IMG/VR virus record: IMGVR_UViG_3300037963_004648
Coordinates: 293-21,349 of that record
Source of the DNA: a virus
Strand: one strand, 5' to 3'
DNA length: 21,057 nt
A model generated the notes under the pieces. That model was not told the origin of the DNA. It saw only the letters and a program-made list of their open reading frames with translations, and ran no database searches. Of the stretch, positions 2,418 through 21,057 are shown in pieces. The stretch's first letter is position 1. Each line of letters opens with the position of its first letter. Position numbers and translations under genes: made by a program.

Positions 2418-3230
2418 TCAGGGTCCAACCTTGTTTCCGTTGATGTCAAAATATGACACCGTGTAATCACTGGTATGGCGACGGAATTGGCCCCTCATGT
2501 CACTTCGGTCCATGTTGGGCCCGAAGTTGTCGGGCGAATTCGCTCGGCTGTCGAGCAGGACAGAAGCAGCGAGCCTCTGGGCAAACAACTCTCGGTACCT
2601 AGTGGTCGGAGTCTCGACGTACTCTTCCGCAATCGAAAGGCAACTGGCGAGGATGGTTTCCGAGTGCTGGGCGCCACCCAAAAAGGTGTCGCTCGAAGCA
2701 TCGGTCTCATCACCTTGGATGGCGATATACCGATACCGAAGCGTGTAAACCTTGTCTGGCGTGGGCCACAGGTAAAGCGAGTATCGGCTCGGGCTGTCCG
2801 GGTATTCCGTGTTCGCTGATTCCTTGGGAACAATGCAGCAGATCGAAGGCCTGTCTTTTCGGGTGGGCTCTTCTGTTTCGATTCGGCGGAAGTTCGCCTC
2901 TCCCACATTCTCAACCGGAGTCTTGGAAGTTTCAGAGGGGAAACTCATGTCTCCGACCAGCCCCCCGAAGTGGGCGGGGAGATCATAGGGCTGCTGGTTT
3001 GCGACAGTCGCCAAGTCAGCCCACGGCTGGAGGAAAGACCAAGTGTGAGTTCCGGACTGCCCGGGCACCGGGGGAGGGTTGTAGAACTGACGCAGCCCAC
3101 GCTTGATGAAGGAGTTGATGTCCTTCTGGCCTTGGGTTGTGGCTTGGGTGTATTCGCCAAAGGACATGAACCTTGCAATCTCATTGCGAAGTTCAAGTCG
3201 AGTGATTTGAAGCCCGTCAGGCTGTGCCAT
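2418..3230 (-). CDS. Probable head-tail adaptor / neck protein (270 aa)
   Basis: The N-terminal part has the pattern of phage neck adaptors: an RxELxxEIARFMSFG helix, a QKDINSFIKRGLRQFYNPPP segment, then WSFLQPWADL. Later come YSLYLWPTPDK and an LRYRYIA strand, followed by a helical region (ILASCLSIAEEYVE) ending in a charged tail. Adaptors of this kind dock under the portal and close the head, joining it to the tail. The ATG has a good GAGGAG site seven bases upstream and overlaps the end of the lipoprotein gene by 14 bases. It is unusually far from the portal gene, on the other side of the recombination genes. The family call rests on pattern recognition, not a search. Confidence 0.55.
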   Translation of the reverse strand: MAQPDGLQITRLELRNEIARFMSFGEYTQATTQGQKDINSFIKRGLRQFYNPPPVPGQSGTHTWSFLQPWADLATVANQQPYDLPAHFGGLVGDMSFPSETSKTPVENVGEANFRRIETEEPTRKDRPSICCIVPKESANTEYPDSPSRYSLYLWPTPDKVYTLRYRYIAIQGDETDASSDTFLGGAQHSETILASCLSIAEEYVETPTTRYRELFAQRLAASVLLDSRANSPDNFGPNMDRSDMRGQFRRHTSDYTVSYFDINGNKVGP

Positions 3231-3810
3231 CTTCAGGCTCCTCGTAGCAATCGAACTCGCAATCGCCCTCGCAGTTCATGCACTCTTCGTCAGCCTGCTT
3301 CAATTCGACGCCGGTGACTGCTGCGGCAATCTCAGCGACCTCAGTCGCCTTGGCCATTCCGGCGTTGTAAGAGGCCTCCTTCTCTTTGGCGACCTCGCGA
3401 TCGGTGCCGGGCTTCTTCATAAACAAGCCAGCAGCACCCCCGAGGAGTCCAATGAGAATCGCGCCTCCCGGGAACGCCGGGGCTGCCCCCTCAGCAGCCG
3501 TGATGGCAATGTCGGTTGCAGAGTTGATAAACCCAAGCAACTCGTACCCACGCTCGGTTTCAGATTCAAGACGCTCGGTGTTCTTCCTGACGTACTCCTG
3601 CCAGTCATCCCAAACATCAGGGATCTCGGTCAAAGTCACATCGCCTTCGACATCCACCGCCTCCTTGACATCCTTCGGGACATCAACCGTAATCAGATCG
3701 CTGACTTGACACCCGGATGCCGCAACCCCAAGCGCGGCCACCACAAGCATTGCTGCGGCGAAAGAAACAGACCAGCGATTGTTTGAAATCCACTTCTTGA
3801 TGACAATCAT
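3217..3810 (-). CDS. Phage lipoprotein with Cys-rich acidic C-terminus (197 aa)
   Basis: The N-terminus is a clear lipoprotein signal: a basic n-region (MIVIKKWISNNR), a hydrophobic core (residues 13-30) and the lipobox AASGC with the lipidated Cys at residue 34. After it comes VSDLITVDVPKDVKEAVDVE, then a helical part with a hydrophobic Gly/Ala segment near residue 120 (GGAILIGLLGGAAGLFM), which could be a second membrane helix. The C-terminus is strongly acidic with four closely spaced cysteines (ECMNCEGDCEFDC). I recall similar proteins in marine phages without a known function. A lysis (o-spanin-like) or host-envelope role is possible, but the length exceeds that of usual o-spanins. The ATG overlaps the stop of the upstream gene (TGATG). 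Confidence 0.7.
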   Translation of the reverse strand: MIVIKKWISNNRWSVSFAAAMLVVAALGVAASGCQVSDLITVDVPKDVKEAVDVEGDVTLTEIPDVWDDWQEYVRKNTERLESETERGYELLGFINSATDIAITAAEGAAPAFPGGAILIGLLGGAAGLFMKKPGTDREVAKEKEASYNAGMAKATEVAEIAAAVTGVELKQADEECMNCEGDCEFDCYEEPEDGTA

Positions 3811-7862: not shown

Positions 7863-7880
7863 GCCACAAGACTAGCGTCG

Positions 7881-7909
7881 ATCCCATATCACGCAAGGTG
7901 CCTAAACAA
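7881..7909 (-). promoter_or_regulatory. Weak candidate promoter for the recombination operon
   Basis: In the 94-base gap before the exonuclease gene, TTGTTT (7904-7909) and TGGGAT (7881-7886) are separated by 17 bases on the minus strand. Each matches only three of six sigma-70 consensus positions, and the -35 element lies inside the T-rich tail of the terminator. A promoter is expected here because the terminator would cut the exonuclease operon off from the late transcript, but this exact site is tentative. Confidence 0.2.
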
Positions 7910-7935
7910 GAAAAGCCGGAGAATCTCCGGCTTTC
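7905..7935 (-). terminator. Rho-independent terminator ending the structural operon
   Basis: Read on the minus strand, AAAGCCGGAG and CTCCGGCTTT form a perfect 10-bp stem with a three-base ATT loop (7912-7934), followed at once by TTTTCTTGTTT. GC-rich stem plus T-rich tail is the classical intrinsic terminator. It lies 22 bases after the stop of the last structural-type gene and 49 bases before the exonuclease start. It therefore separates the packaging/head/fibre unit from the recombination unit. Confidence 0.88.
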
Positions 7936-15719: not shown

Positions 15720-17510
15720 CTACTGCTGGGGGGCCGCGGGAGCCGATTGGCTCATCATCTGCTGTTGCCCCGGGGTCATCTGATTTCCCATCAACGCTTG
15801 AATAGTCGCTGACTCTCTGGCTTCTTGGGTGCCCCCGGTAGCGACGTTTTGCCTGACATAGTTCCGGGTGGTCTCAGGCGTCTGCCCCTGCTCCTTCATG
15901 AGTTCCATCGCTTCGCCGGGATCGCCAAGCGGAACCACCAGATTCTCAATTTCAGGCATATTAGAAAGTTCTGAGACTTGGCGGATAAAGGCGGTCGCAT
16001 CAATACCAAGGCCTTGAGCCTGCAACTGGGGGGCGAGGGGAATCAAGAAGTTCGTGACCGTGTTGGCAAGGATCCCCAACTTCTGCTGGGGGCTCGACTC
16101 TCTCATGGAAGAGGGAGCGATATCAAAGTTCATCTCAACGAACTCTGACTCCTTGCGATCCTTGGGGTTGAACTTCAGGGGGATCTCAAACGAAGTGTCA
16201 GGCAGAACATCAACAAGGTCATACCGGCGGACCGGGTCATACCAGACCCAAGACGCAATCGACTTGACGCATCGCTCCGCAAAGACAATGACAGCAGACT
16301 GCATGTCTTGGATCTTCTGAGACGAAGACGCCTTGATGATCTGCTCCTGACCGACAGTTTCCGCCTGAACCGAGAGGCCACCCATGGACGAAAGATTGCC
16401 GCCCATGTAGTCAAAGAGTTGCCTCAGCGTGATCGAGAAAGCAAGGTTCTGCTGGTCCACTCCGCCGAATCTTGCTTCCCGAGTGGCTTCGGGGCGATCC
16501 ACCCGGATCATGTCTCCATCGTCGGAGTTGAGAATGCGCTCGCCATCTTCGTCAGAACCAGCAGCGACCAGCGTCACGGTCTTCTGGCGATCCGACTGGC
16601 GAACCAGTTTCCTGAAGGTCCGATTCAGGGCGTCGTTCATATCGACAAGATTGGCCACCGGCGGGAGCGGCATGAGATTGCCGCTGACCTCGCCAAGGCT
16701 CAGTGCGATATATGGACCGACTTCGGGGCCACTCCAGTCAACCTCTCGGATCGCATGGTCCATCATCGGCACTCCCCTGTTGTCACAGGCGAATGTCATG
16801 ACCTTGCTTTCATACGGCATGTAGATGTCCCAGAGTTCAAGGACATCCTTTGCTCGCGTATACGTCGCGGTGCCATACGCCTGCTTCGAATCGAGCGAAC
16901 TCGTCTTGAGTTCCCCGTACTCGTTGTAGGCCTGATTCTGCTTGGGGGAGGGCTTGTCCTTGAAGTCAAACGCCTTCGAGTCCATGGCTTCTTCGTAAGG
17001 CAACTCATACCTGTTGCCCACGAATTGCATGGCCTCCCAGTGCTTGGCGTTCATGTCGAGGACCAAATCATCCAAATCGACGGCGTCCATGAACGGAAAA
17101 CCGGCATCGTGGAGATACCCGGGCATCTCCCCAAAGGCCTTGTCCGTAATGCCGATCTTCGCCACGCCAATTCCGAACAAGGCATCGAACACCACAGTGT
17201 TCATGCTGGTCCGGAAGTCCATTTCATCAAGCACCTTGGTCAGTGCGAGTTGAAACTTCCGAGCCACCGGCCTGAGACTGCGCTTCTCAGTCCTGATTCG
17301 AACAGAAGGATTGCTGGTAACGAGGTTCCGGCGGTAGATCTGAACCGCCATCTCCAGCATGTTGACAGGAACCCGGTCGCTGGTTGCCTCGCCATTGTAA
17401 TGACGCCCAAGGTACGTCTTGAGATTGCGAACCCGCTCTTCTCGAAACGGGAGCATCCGCAGACGCGACCACTCAAAGGCCTGCCGGAGTTTGCTGTAGT
17501 CGCTCACCAC
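15720..17510 (-). CDS. Portal protein
   Basis: The portal is a dodecamer at one vertex through which DNA enters. The N-terminus has the typical portal phrase RLRMLPFREERVRNLKTYLG, followed by RVPVNMLEMAVQIYRRNLVT and SNPSVRIRTEK. The central part carries LVDMNDALNRTFRKLVRQSD, the clip/stem helices, and QAETVGQEQIIKASSSQKIQ. The C-terminus is Gln/Met/Pro-rich and disordered (MGNQMTPGQQQMMSQSAPAA). Length (596 aa) is in the range for podovirus-type portals. It starts with GTG (two GTG codons in a row) overlapping the terminase stop by about seven bases and lacks a strong ribosome site, so it is probably coupled to terminase translation. Confidence 0.87.
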   Translation of the reverse strand: MVSDYSKLRQAFEWSRLRMLPFREERVRNLKTYLGRHYNGEATSDRVPVNMLEMAVQIYRRNLVTSNPSVRIRTEKRSLRPVARKFQLALTKVLDEMDFRTSMNTVVFDALFGIGVAKIGITDKAFGEMPGYLHDAGFPFMDAVDLDDLVLDMNAKHWEAMQFVGNRYELPYEEAMDSKAFDFKDKPSPKQNQAYNEYGELKTSSLDSKQAYGTATYTRAKDVLELWDIYMPYESKVMTFACDNRGVPMMDHAIREVDWSGPEVGPYIALSLGEVSGNLMPLPPVANLVDMNDALNRTFRKLVRQSDRQKTVTLVAAGSDEDGERILNSDDGDMIRVDRPEATREARFGGVDQQNLAFSITLRQLFDYMGGNLSSMGGLSVQAETVGQEQIIKASSSQKIQDMQSAVIVFAERCVKSIASWVWYDPVRRYDLVDVLPDTSFEIPLKFNPKDRKESEFVEMNFDIAPSSMRESSPQQKLGILANTVTNFLIPLAPQLQAQGLGIDATAFIRQVSELSNMPEIENLVVPLGDPGEAMELMKEQGQTPETTRNYVRQNVATGGTQEARESATIQALMGNQMTPGQQQMMSQSAPAAPQQ

Positions 17511-19228
17511 TGGGTCGCTTTCTTTTTGTTCTCCTGCTGTCGCCTGCGGCGATACATCAGGGAACCGGGAAGGATGGTTGGCTTGGGCGTGGCCTTCGAA
17601 TGACCTTCATAGCCCATTGCCATGCAAAGCAGGGCGTCCGCTGTTGCCCTGTCTCCATGATTCATGCGGGCGCCCGAAGAGTCCCGGACGCTTACCGATC
17701 GGGTGTGTTCAATTCCACCACCCGGCATATAAACAATCTCAGAGCATTCAGCCAAGGCTTCTTTCGAGCGATTGATGAAAGACTCCGAGAACAACTGCCT
17801 TCGGTAGTTCCCGAACAAGGTCAACTTCGTGTCGCGAGTGGGAATCCACCCCATCATTTCGCCCTGCTTCTTGATCGCACCGCCTTCTTTTCGACGGAAC
17901 CAGATCTCGCGATGGCCGAGTTCGACAACAACGTCACCAAAGATCCGGCCGGGGCCAGCGGCCTCCCAGCACAGCAAGGCTGGGAGGCCATGCTGGTCAC
18001 GCAGCCAACGAGCCAACGCCACGGCGTATTTCGCCAGTTGATCCGGACGCATGTTGGGAACGGCGAACTCACCGATCTTCTCCCGGGTCTTTCGGTCGCC
18101 GATGGAGAGGCATGAGTTGCTCGAGCCGGTACCCGTCGCAATGTCAATGCCAACCGCATAGGAGCGATCCCTAGGCATGTCGCCATTGGCATCCGGGTGC
18201 GTCCACAACTTCAGCCTTCCTCGGGGTGCCGGGTCGAACCGCGGGTTGTCGGGGCTGTCTTCCCAGTCGATCTCGCCCCTGACATAGGGGGCCCGAATGA
18301 ACTTGCTTTGGTATTGAGCAAGCAGGTTGATGTCAAAGAAGACCTGCTGCGAAGCACCGAACGAGATGTCCAGTTCCTGCGCAATCTCCACCGGGCTGGC
18401 ACAACGCTTGACTTCCCGGTCGTACCAAGGGCTCCGGGCCTTGTCGCCTTCGTAGTAAAGGCCTTCGGACTTCTTGGGATGCTTGGTCCAGTGCAGGCGG
18501 ACCTGCTTTATCTCTTCGTTCTGGGCGACCGCATGAAAGGCGTTGTTCGTGCCATTCGGCGTTGAGTTGAAGATTCTCGAGTTCGTCGCATCGCGGGTGG
18601 CCGCCATCGCTCGGTACCCAGCGTCAATGTCAAACGCCGCAAATTCATCGAGGCCAATGGCTGTCCGCCTATCACCGCGAGCCACATCGCCCGTCGTAGA
18701 TTCGCCATCGATCGTGGACCCGTTGTCATTGTTGCTCAACCTCAACTTTGTGCGGGAGAAAGACGGGAGCATCCATCCCGGGAGGTGCTTCATGATGAAG
18801 TCGATCTTCCAGAACAATGACTTAGGGTTCCCGGCCTTGTCAACGTAATCCTCATTACGACTGACCAGCAGAAACGATTCGCCATCGCGGAACATCCACC
18901 GATACAGGAATATCCCCACCAGCATCCATGACGCACCCATGTCACGGCTCTTGCTGATGCAGATGTCACTGATCCCGACCGAGCCATTGATGTCAGAGAT
19001 CGCCTCGTCCTGAAACCCATAGGTCACCATGGGCACGACACTGGCACTGAGACGCGGGTCGTAGGTGAACACGAACGAGTTCCACCAGAACAGTGGATCA
19101 ACGCGGCACAACGCCTTCAGGTCCGACTGCAACTCGCGGTCGGACCCGGCAGCCCTGATGATCTTCTTCCGGAAGTCAATGTTCCGGACCAGATCCCGAG
19201 GCACGTCCTTGTGATACTCAGGTGCCAA
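17504..19228 (-). CDS. terL: Terminase large subunit
   Basis: TerL is the ATP-driven motor and nuclease that packages DNA. The ATPase has a Walker A-like ISKSRDMGAS (residues 91-100), Walker B IGLDE (191-195) and coupling motif NSTPNG (221-226). The RNase H-like nuclease has AVGIDIATGTG with Asp362, WEAAG with Glu422 and HGDRATADALL with a C-terminal Asp (526 or 531), the three acidic positions expected. Length (574 aa) is normal. The start is probably TTG, with GGGGA five bases upstream and an 11-base overlap with the preceding gene; no nearby ATG fits. The SRDMGAS form of Walker A is seen in many phage TerL proteins. Confidence 0.93.
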   Translation of the reverse strand: MAPEYHKDVPRDLVRNIDFRKKIIRAAGSDRELQSDLKALCRVDPLFWWNSFVFTYDPRLSASVVPMVTYGFQDEAISDINGSVGISDICISKSRDMGASWMLVGIFLYRWMFRDGESFLLVSRNEDYVDKAGNPKSLFWKIDFIMKHLPGWMLPSFSRTKLRLSNNDNGSTIDGESTTGDVARGDRRTAIGLDEFAAFDIDAGYRAMAATRDATNSRIFNSTPNGTNNAFHAVAQNEEIKQVRLHWTKHPKKSEGLYYEGDKARSPWYDREVKRCASPVEIAQELDISFGASQQVFFDINLLAQYQSKFIRAPYVRGEIDWEDSPDNPRFDPAPRGRLKLWTHPDANGDMPRDRSYAVGIDIATGTGSSNSCLSIGDRKTREKIGEFAVPNMRPDQLAKYAVALARWLRDQHGLPALLCWEAAGPGRIFGDVVVELGHREIWFRRKEGGAIKKQGEMMGWIPTRDTKLTLFGNYRRQLFSESFINRSKEALAECSEIVYMPGGGIEHTRSVSVRDSSGARMNHGDRATADALLCMAMGYEGHSKATPKPTILPGSLMYRRRRQQENKKKATQW

Positions 19229-19811
19229 TCAAATCCCCGGCGATCTTCCGAACACGGTCCAAGGCATCGATCAGGCGGTCCTCGTCATCTGCCGCATCCG
19301 ATGCCTCCTCAATCTCACGCTTGGTGGGAATGACCACCTGCTTGTAGATCTGGGTGTAGAACTGGTCCGGATTCCGCCGTGCCCAGCAAAGCATCCCCCA
19401 AGCAGCAACGCTGGGGGCCTGCTCCTTCTGGGCCTCTTCGTTCGGCAGGTTCTCCGCCACCCACTTCACGTTCGAAACGTCATTCGAGGCAATAAGAGAC
19501 CCCCTCGGAGGGGGCTCTACCTCTCGAGGGGGCTCCGTGGGGGGAAGGCTATCGTTACCGGCCGATCGCTTCGCCTTGTTCGCTTCCTTCGTCTTGGCCT
19601 TCTTCTCGGACCATTCGAGAGTAACCGCCTTGATCTGATCAGTCAAGCGGTCTCGATCTATTCCAAACTCTTCATTCAACACCGCTTCTCTTTCGAGATA
19701 GTGGCTCTGGCCATCATTCAATTCCTTGGCCCGGCCAAAATACGAAGAACGCCAGTTCTCTGGCTGCTCCGCAATCCAACGCTTCTTGGCTTCTCGGAAG
19801 ATTGGGTCCAT
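19218..19811 (-). CDS. Possible terminase small subunit (197 aa)
   Basis: The position directly before and overlapping terL is that of the small terminase, which recognises phage DNA to start packaging. The protein is hydrophilic and helical: KRWIAEQPENWRSSYFGRAK, DRLTDQIKAVTLEWSEKKAK, a Lys/Pro-rich disordered middle (TEPPREVEPPPRG) and a helical C-terminus (DEDRLIDALDRVRKIAGDLI). No obvious HTH is visible by eye, and the segment MLCWARRNPDQFYTQIYKQV is unlike standard TerS. The call is mainly positional. The ATG has no clear ribosome site. Confidence 0.5.
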   Translation of the reverse strand: MDPIFREAKKRWIAEQPENWRSSYFGRAKELNDGQSHYLEREAVLNEEFGIDRDRLTDQIKAVTLEWSEKKAKTKEANKAKRSAGNDSLPPTEPPREVEPPPRGSLIASNDVSNVKWVAENLPNEEAQKEQAPSVAAWGMLCWARRNPDQFYTQIYKQVVIPTKREIEEASDAADDEDRLIDALDRVRKIAGDLIGT

Positions 19812-19815
19812 AACG

Positions 19816-20154
19816 TCAGTCTACGAATGATGTTGATATTGGGCAAGCATTCTCAGATTTGCGCAGTTCTGAGACAACCCAATCAACCATGCTTGGGCTT
19901 CTCATCACCAGACCAGCCAACGCATGTTCAAGACACCTGATGTGATTCTCTTTGAGGTTCAAATCGTAAATATCACAGATTGCCTCAATAGTCTCATGAA
20001 TTACGGTCAGTGCGGCCATGTCACCCCGGACCGGGCCAATCACAATCTCATGAGCAGGGAAACTGCGGTACTCCCCAAAGTGACCTAGGGACAAGTCTTG
20101 GTCCACAGGAACCCAGACAGATCCAATCCAAACACGGCCCTTTGGGATTCCCAT
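19816..20154 (-). CDS. Small phage protein with HETIE metallopeptidase-like motif (112 aa)
   Basis: The start is MGIPKGRVWIGSVWVPVDQD, with GGGAGG five bases upstream and one base after the preceding stop; a longer frame overlaps the previous gene and lacks support. The centre has ALTVIHETIEAICDIYDLNL followed by HIRCLEHALAGLV. This matches a small phage family in which a helix carries HExxH or HExxE and a second helix carries a conserved His/Glu, like the zincin core. Here the second metal ligand is Glu (HETIE), so activity is doubtful. The role is unknown. Confidence 0.65.
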   Translation of the reverse strand: MGIPKGRVWIGSVWVPVDQDLSLGHFGEYRSFPAHEIVIGPVRGDMAALTVIHETIEAICDIYDLNLKENHIRCLEHALAGLVMRSPSMVDWVVSELRKSENACPISTSFVD

Positions 20155-20155
20155 A

Positions 20156-20422
20156 TCAACCTCCCAACGCTTCCCTCTCCACATCAGCCAAGTCACCACT
20201 CCGAACAAAGACAGGGGGCGGGATGTTCATGTCCACTGCCGTGGACACCGCCTGATCCTCTAGGTACTTCACGATCTGATCTACATCATCAACCGTGACA
20301 CCGTTCTCAAGATCCTCAAAGATCAAATTGCTCAAACGATCAATCGAGTAGACCACAATCCGGTGCTTGCCCAGATTGGCCCAACCAACAATTGCGTCTT
20401 CGATCCCTTCGATCAGGATCAT
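20156..20422 (-). CDS. Hypothetical protein, first gene of the leftward unit (88 aa)
   Basis: The start MILIEGIEDAIVGWANLGKH has AGGGGG four bases upstream. The protein is a small mixed alpha/beta unit: an N-terminal strand, HRIVVYSIDRLSNLIFEDLE and TVDDVDQIVKYLED, then a Val/Pro-rich tail (VDMNIPPPVFVRSGDL). No membrane segment or catalytic motif is seen, and I do not recognise the family. It opens the long leftward unit that continues through the packaging genes. Confidence 0.62.
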   Translation of the reverse strand: MILIEGIEDAIVGWANLGKHRIVVYSIDRLSNLIFEDLENGVTVDDVDQIVKYLEDQAVSTAVDMNIPPPVFVRSGDLADVEREALGG

Positions 20423-20432
20423 GACACCCCCT

Positions 20433-20451
20433 TTGGCCAGAGTTTAGCCAA
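20433..20451. promoter_or_regulatory. Short inverted repeat before the first leftward gene
   Basis: TTGGC and GCCAA flank nine bases, between the structured region and the ribosome site of the first minus-strand gene. It could be an operator or a small mRNA leader hairpin. Five base pairs are weak evidence, and no clear sigma-70 promoter is visible beside it. Confidence 0.22.
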
Positions 20452-20461
20452 TCCAACAACT

Positions 20462-21057
20462 GGGCCGGGAGAATTTGTGCGCAGACCGGGGGCCTTTCTC
20501 CCAACCTTGTGCCCCAGCACGGGAAACAAGACCTTCAGGAGAAACACGACTCATCACTCGCTAGAACTCGGCGCTGGTTGGGAGACCCCACAATCCCTTA
20601 GGACAGCCCTCGTGGTGGGGTTTTGGTTGATACGCCGAGTGAGACGCGAGATTTTCGGCCTGTTAAGCCTTCCCTGTGACTGGCCGGTACCAGCCACCTC
20701 CCACGGGCACTCTAGAAACGCCTTTGGATCAGGACTGAAGACCGGATTGGGTACCGGCTAGGCGTGTTCCCGAAACCTGCTGACGCCGCTCAGTGCTTCA
20801 CGACGCCAGAATGAGTCTGTACTGCGTTGTCTAAAACCGCTGACCGAACCCCATAGCCCAGCCAACGGCGAGAGGAAAGAGATCTAGAGCAGCCTAACGA
20901 CTGCTCTGGGGGTGTCAAGCGATACAAGTTGCCAATTTCCAAGCAATTGAGGGGCTACATTGTGACGAAGCCCCCCCCTGCGGGGTCGTGGTAAAGATAG
21001 GAACAGGTACCTTCTCTATGGGGGGGCCTTCTTCTCCGCGCCCTAGCATCGCCCCGA
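20462..21057 (+). ncRNA. Candidate large structured non-coding RNA (plus strand), open at the right edge
   Basis: About 600 bases hold no credible gene but many complementary segments. Examples: 20467-20473/20496-20502 (7 bp); 20506-20514/20521-20530 (8 bp, imperfect); 20557-20561/20646-20650 stacked through an internal loop on 20566-20573/20633-20640 (5+8 bp); 20582-20591/20615-20624 (10 bp); 20680-20691/20750-20761 (12 bp); 20761-20768/20774-20787 (imperfect, sharing base 20761); 20883-20892/20901-20910 (10 bp); 20927-20932/20943-20948; 20951-20956/20969-20974. In the 10-, 12- and 6-bp helices, six pairs are G-U if the plus strand is read and would be A-C mismatches on the minus strand, which favours plus-strand transcription. 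Size, branching and phage location recall GOLLD and ROOL RNAs, but I cannot match it to either. Ends and promoter are unknown. Confidence 0.55.

Follow-up and report, generated by a model that had tools for sequence, protein, structure and literature searches.

Large structured RNAs are a known kind of phage product. ROOL and GOLLD are large, branched and structured phage RNAs whose function is not established, the ROOL env-120 RNA being 659 nt in length and many GOLLD RNAs exceeding 800 nt (PMC12286853). The put RNA of phage HK022, also structured, follows a phage promoter and opens a long transcription unit (PMC9378689). The RNA described here lies in the window, i.e. the whole stretch of 21,057 nucleotides that was analysed, which corresponds to positions 293-21349 in a virus record of 23,768 bases, and it belongs to none of the families tested. 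Like ROOL and GOLLD it is a large, branched and structured phage RNA, but it is about 400 nt long, has no Rfam match and no tRNA neighbours, and heads a packaging and capsid operon behind a conserved putative promoter. GOLLD RNAs are often found near tRNA genes. No Rfam model matched the region at gathering thresholds, and a cmscan of the window region and five of its relatives, at E-values up to 10, recovered only two sub-threshold chance matches. An earlier note on this DNA had suggested a member or distant variant of GOLLD or ROOL, or else a new class, and had proposed a check against Rfam that also included group I introns and RNase P. The covariance models of both GOLLD and ROOL were unmatched, GOLLD additionally differing in length and in its tRNA neighbours, which leaves a new class as the remaining reading in the collections searched. 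Group I and group II introns, RNase P and tmRNA were likewise rejected, as there was no Rfam match, no tRNA or tmRNA gene was found in the scanned records and the RNA lies between genes in all cases where both flanks are visible.

With put the RNA shares its structured nature, its proximity to a promoter and its place at the head of a long unit. However, with about 400 nt and 15 helices it is roughly six times larger than put (about 70 nt with two stem-loops), and it heads virion genes, unlike put, which serves early genes; membership was rejected on the size and the number of stem-loops. The pRNA of phi29 is also a structured phage RNA, and the RNA here adjoins terminase genes, but the Rfam family model of pRNA was unmatched and the phages are of a different type, with records exceeding 42 kb and a conventional large terminase subunit (TerL). 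Bacterial riboswitches and structured leaders are comparable in their 5' leader position, in alternative 3' pairings and in having a linker to the ribosome-binding site, although no known class is matched and no ligand is suggested. A retron or a TnpB-type guide RNA, which would adjoin a gene for a reverse transcriptase or a nuclease, was also rejected, as RVT_1 (reverse transcriptase) and Cas12f1-like_TNB (TnpB-type) gave no match in six records.

The region was confirmed to be non-coding with a large branched fold. Sequence comparisons indicate that it encodes a structured RNA of about 400 nt, which would be transcribed leftward (minus strand), with the following parts:

20483..20885, minus strand: structured RNA of about 400 nt, recognized from alignment A3, covariation and nhmmer matches
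20837..20868, minus strand: helix 1, the 5' hairpin, 13 pairs of which 7 have changes on both sides
20548..20817, minus strand: helix 2, long-range (20810-20817/20548-20555), closing the central domain, with both-side changes in 4 of 8 pairs
20780..20809, minus strand: helix 3, both-side changes in 5 of 10 pairs
20706..20777, minus strand: helices 4-6, the most conserved part, with invariant CAGGUUUCGG, CAGUCCUG and CCAAAGGCGUU stretches
20675..20698, minus strand: helix 7, both-side changes in 6 of 8 pairs
20657..20669, minus strand: helix 8, both-side changes in 2 of 4 pairs
20557..20650, minus strand: helices 9-12, the domain singled out in the earlier note, with inner helix 20615-20620/20586-20591
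20496..20543, minus strand: 3' hairpin formed by helices 13-14, with predicted energies of -20.5 to -25.3 kcal/mol across all lineages
20498..20584, minus strand: alternative long-range pairing, 20577-20584/20498-20505, of CUCCCAAC with GUUGGGAG
20483..20495, minus strand: 3'-end element AGGCCCCCGGUCU, nearly invariant, with a possible 5-bp hairpin

The 5' end, near 20885, was inferred from the promoter, and the 3' end was set at 20483, where conservation breaks off sharply. The interval of 20462-21057 originally assigned to the element is too wide as given, the RNA itself occupying about 20483-20885, and three of the G-U pairs named in its support (20883/20910, 20885/20908, 20928/20947) lie in the promoter region, at the putative transcription start or further upstream. 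Helix 1 is absent in lineage L016, which implies that the 5' hairpin is dispensable. The closed multi-part domain at 20557-20650 had been drawn exactly: a 5-bp helix (20646-20650/20557-20561) and an 8-bp helix (20632-20639/20567-20574), with an asymmetric internal loop between them, are present in all seven lineages with compensatory changes. The tip hairpin of helices 9-12 has the form GUCC-UUCG-GGAU, the loop in the window being UAAG. Many unpaired stretches of the RNA are invariant, and its 3' part has the sequence GGUUGGGAGAAAGGCCCCCGGUCU.

Alignment A3 was made from sequence only with MAFFT and folded, after which the structure was counted; the model was later revised. The revised model has 15 helices, with 94.6% of cells pairing. 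Of the 108 pairs in the model, 38 have changed on both sides on the minus strand, the corresponding counts being 20.5±2.7 for shuffles and no more than 12 for slid controls, while the covariation score is 0.371 versus 0.214±0.013 when shuffled; on every measure none of 500 shuffles was as high as the revised model. This covariation across seven lineages upholds the proposal of a large, branched, conserved phage RNA. RNAalifold on column-shuffled alignments gave z-scores of -12.4 for the minus and -8.0 for the plus strand, a low plus-strand value being expected because Watson-Crick helices mirror. The strand was assigned from the wobble pairs: among pairs common to both strand predictions the ratio of G-U to A-C is 33:8 or 11:2 in the minus-strand reading. 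Single-sequence folding z-scores are also lower on the minus than on the plus strand in 7/7 lineages, the value for the minus strand of the window being -1.74.

The strand named in the earlier note, opposite to all genes, has thus to be reversed: alifold, the wobble pairs, single-sequence folding and a conserved putative promoter on the same strand all place the RNA on the strand of the window's genes. The argument from G-U pairs on the plus strand also failed, as those of the named pairs that fall inside the RNA all lie outside the covarying model, 20582/20624 pairing in only 4 of 7 lineages, 20584/20622 being invariant and 20682/20759 being G-U throughout save for one A-U. Folding energy, put forward as a check, was no better than shuffled on the plus strand of the window (z -0.06, 48 of 100 shuffles being as good). 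The search for homologues with covarying pairs did succeed, with the pairs on the minus rather than the plus strand.

Homologues were sought through relatives of TerL, three DNA patterns and the clade alignment. The region is present in 11 viral contigs from seven lineages, namely the window and ten further contigs in six lineages, in all ten of which it is located by nhmmer; distinct lineages show 62-74% identity to the window. The TerL proteins of all contigs carrying the RNA are about 80% identical or more. In every member found the RNA is upstream of orf88-orf112-TerS-TerL, and it lies between genes wherever both sides are visible. Among more distant TerL relatives (57% identity or less) neither nhmmer nor two covariance models matched the RNA, models R1 and R2 recovering nothing significant on 76 loci of such relatives. 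Homologues of orf88 and orf112 were detected only in RNA-bearing contigs, a co-occurrence confounded by shared descent. Matches in genome_contigs to a 17-base core pattern were about as numerous as expected by chance and weak by nhmmer, and in INPHARED phages similar DNA was not found beyond a 34-base match at E 0.7, their TerL proteins being only distant. Within the collections searched, the RNA is confined to one uncultured phage clade. The sister phages L057 (about 3017-3402), L058 and L061 possess a palindrome-rich conserved non-coding stretch upstream of TerS; this analogous region is only modestly structured, with an alifold z of about -3 on both strands, and is without a sequence link to the RNA.

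The surroundings of the RNA in the window comprise the following:

20999..21012, no strand assigned: palindrome AGGAACAGGTACCT (AGGWACNNGTWCCT), near-perfect, within C-rich/G-rich inverted arms
20913..20918, minus strand: putative -35 box TTGACA, TTGACR (TTGCGT in L005) in 6/6 lineages reaching here
20891..20896, minus strand: putative -10 box TAGGCT, TANNNT in 6/6, at a constant 16-nt spacing from the -35 box
20423..20482, minus strand: linker from the RNA to the orf88 start codon, 58-63 nt across lineages
20156..20422, minus strand: orf88, first gene of the operon, phrog_13182-like
19816..20154, minus strand: orf112, a small protein with HExxE
19218..19811, minus strand: small terminase subunit (TerS), assigned from position and not from a family match
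17504..19228, minus strand: TerL (phrog_5989, phrog_2)
7904..7935, minus strand: predicted, conserved intrinsic terminator closing the structural module, an equivalent hairpin and T tract occurring in the window, L004, L017 and L016 records
7869..7896, minus strand: second promoter-like site, TTGCGT-N16-TAGTCT, preceding the exonuclease module, read by eye

The minus strand carries the genes considered, from orf88 and TerL leftward, and a conserved gene beyond the gap at the right end of the window is oriented oppositely, which makes 20423-21057 a divergent intergenic region. The right end touches a run of N, the remainder of the record being read as L003. Further N runs at L003 2351-2360 and 2947-2956 mark the record as a scaffold, with the divergent promoter region incomplete here. 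The L004 record (42.8 kb) has the same layout free of gaps: a divergent unit that encodes CobS/CobT-like AAA and VWA proteins lies opposite a long one comprising, among other genes, those for terminase, portal and capsid. The CobS-like AAA ATPase and CobT-like VWA protein of that divergent unit lie at L128:12-1859 and L130:573-2600.

Upstream of the RNA the order AACTTGTA-N4-TTGACR-N16-TANNNT, with constant spacing and variable spacer sequence, is seen in all six lineages that extend far enough, the -10 box alone being visible in the truncated L008. These elements point to a conserved sigma-70-type promoter just upstream of the RNA, with a putative start near 20885. The version in the window has 8 of 12 consensus bases and was missed by a consensus promoter scan, which did find that of L004. 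The palindrome is exact in 4 of 6 records (G000, G001, G003 and G004, one copy each) and inexact in G002 and G005; it might be an operator through which a repressor or activator acts on the divergent region. Mean pairwise identity is 42% in the linker versus 72% in the RNA, while the length of the linker is near-constant, a constancy that could reflect compact genomes. The ribosome-binding stretch within it is often paired in predicted folds, and no terminator-like site was found between the RNA and orf88 on the minus strand. Beyond the last structural gene there is a strong hairpin with a T tract, and boxes resembling those of the second promoter-like site, at 16-17 nt spacing, are present in 4/4 records (window, L004, L017 and L016). 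This terminator and new promoter-like site, about 12.5 kb downstream of the RNA in the window, appear to delimit the unit that it heads.

Relatives of orf88 match phrog_13182, and orf88 itself is predicted to fold like uncharacterised phage proteins of comparable size; a role for orf88 as an RNA-binding partner was not adopted, since the fold search returned such proteins alone, with weak E-values. In orf112 the HExxE helix is invariant and reminiscent of a degenerate HExxH metalloprotease motif. No integrase was found.

Based on these observations we propose, with a probability of roughly one half, that the RNA is a cis-acting 5' leader of the packaging and capsid operon, orf88-orf112-TerS-TerL-portal-capsid and the genes that follow. 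Its strand, extent, structure, promoter geometry, fixed position and near-constant distance of 58-63 nt from the first start codon are supported by the sequence comparisons. We infer action in cis, which fits the position, the promoter and the near-constant linker length. In such a leader, the RNA would fold around the long-range closing helix as RNA polymerase leaves the promoter, and two states would then be open to its 3' end, the local hairpin or a pairing with the central domain. Which of them is adopted would determine the extent to which the operon is transcribed or translated, either by way of the elongating polymerase or by making the ribosome-binding site in the linker more or less accessible.

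Two mutually exclusive pairings are possible at the 3' end, as the alternative pairing 20577-20584/20498-20505 cannot coexist with helices 13-14. In every lineage the GGUUGGGAG stretch can form the local hairpin (-20.5 to -25.3 kcal/mol for the whole) or pair with the central-domain CUCCCAACC, the bare duplex being predicted at -15.1 to -18.2 kcal/mol in every lineage. The alternative pairing is possible in 7/7 lineages and shows a single compensatory change (L005); one C is lost in L005 and L008, coinciding with a G-to-A change at the facing position. The exclusive pairings suggest a switch, although it rests on that one compensatory change, and in the shuffle control, which is not significant, 62 of 500 shuffles did as well. 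We tentatively put forward, as a conjecture more apt to fail than to hold, that this new class of large phage RNA is a two-state regulatory switch for virion genes, in which a fixed ruler of 60 nt would couple the choice between 3' hairpin and long-range pairing to the start codon with which the packaging operon opens.

Against a cis-acting leader, about 400 nt is large for such an element, and a structure so complex would be in keeping, too, with an independent RNA excised from the leader, as in the main rival, a GOLLD-like RNA acting in trans. Such an RNA would be made at the operon head, cut out or terminated, and exist free, perhaps as an oligomer, in the infected cell, which may also hold for GOLLD and ROOL; a homo-oligomeric cage is characteristic of ROOL. 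The size, the closed multi-branch architecture, the many invariant unpaired stretches and the sharp end of conservation at 20483 are all consistent with it, but the 3' end has no terminator, there are no tRNA genes and no Rfam match, and the distance to orf88 is near-fixed, leaving it a serious if on balance doubtful contender.

Processive antitermination, in which the nascent RNA stays on the polymerase and reads through operon terminators like HK022 put, is a sub-mechanism of the cis-acting leader that is listed apart for its sharp prediction. A putative promoter immediately precedes the RNA, the unit headed by it extends over at least about 12 kb, and put does work in this way (PMC9378689). 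However, put is far smaller, the sole well-conserved terminator here is followed by a promoter-like site of its own so that read-through is not obviously needed, and terminator-like sites are little above chance. A put-like mechanism is possible, if unneeded for expression beyond the terminator, and we regard it as unlikely. We consider very improbable a packaging RNA that would act together with the terminase or portal, whose genes follow it, in the manner of phi29 pRNA: TerS and TerL are always downstream of it, but it matches no Rfam family, occurs in records above 42 kb with a conventional terminase, and was not found with TerL relatives at up to 57% identity. A DNA-level element, such as an origin, packaging site or operator array, could draw on the divergent intergenic region and the palindrome upstream, but neither the strand asymmetry of G-U over A-C nor long-range compensatory pairs would be expected of it, and it has hardly any probability left. 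A conserved small protein gene or chance structure can be dismissed in the face of the strong covariation, as individual sequences do contain open frames, the longest of about 100 codons, but stop-free stretches vary among lineages in frame and length, and many indels in alignment A3 are not in threes.

Few large structured phage RNAs are known, and GOLLD and ROOL are among those without a known function. The RNA reported here has an address: its strand and putative promoter are assigned, and the operon that it heads is defined, with a start codon at a near-fixed distance. Its function is therefore testable with a simple reporter. In textbook phages late-gene control is protein-based; if it is true that this RNA controls the virion genes, the clade would furnish a case of RNA-based late-gene control.
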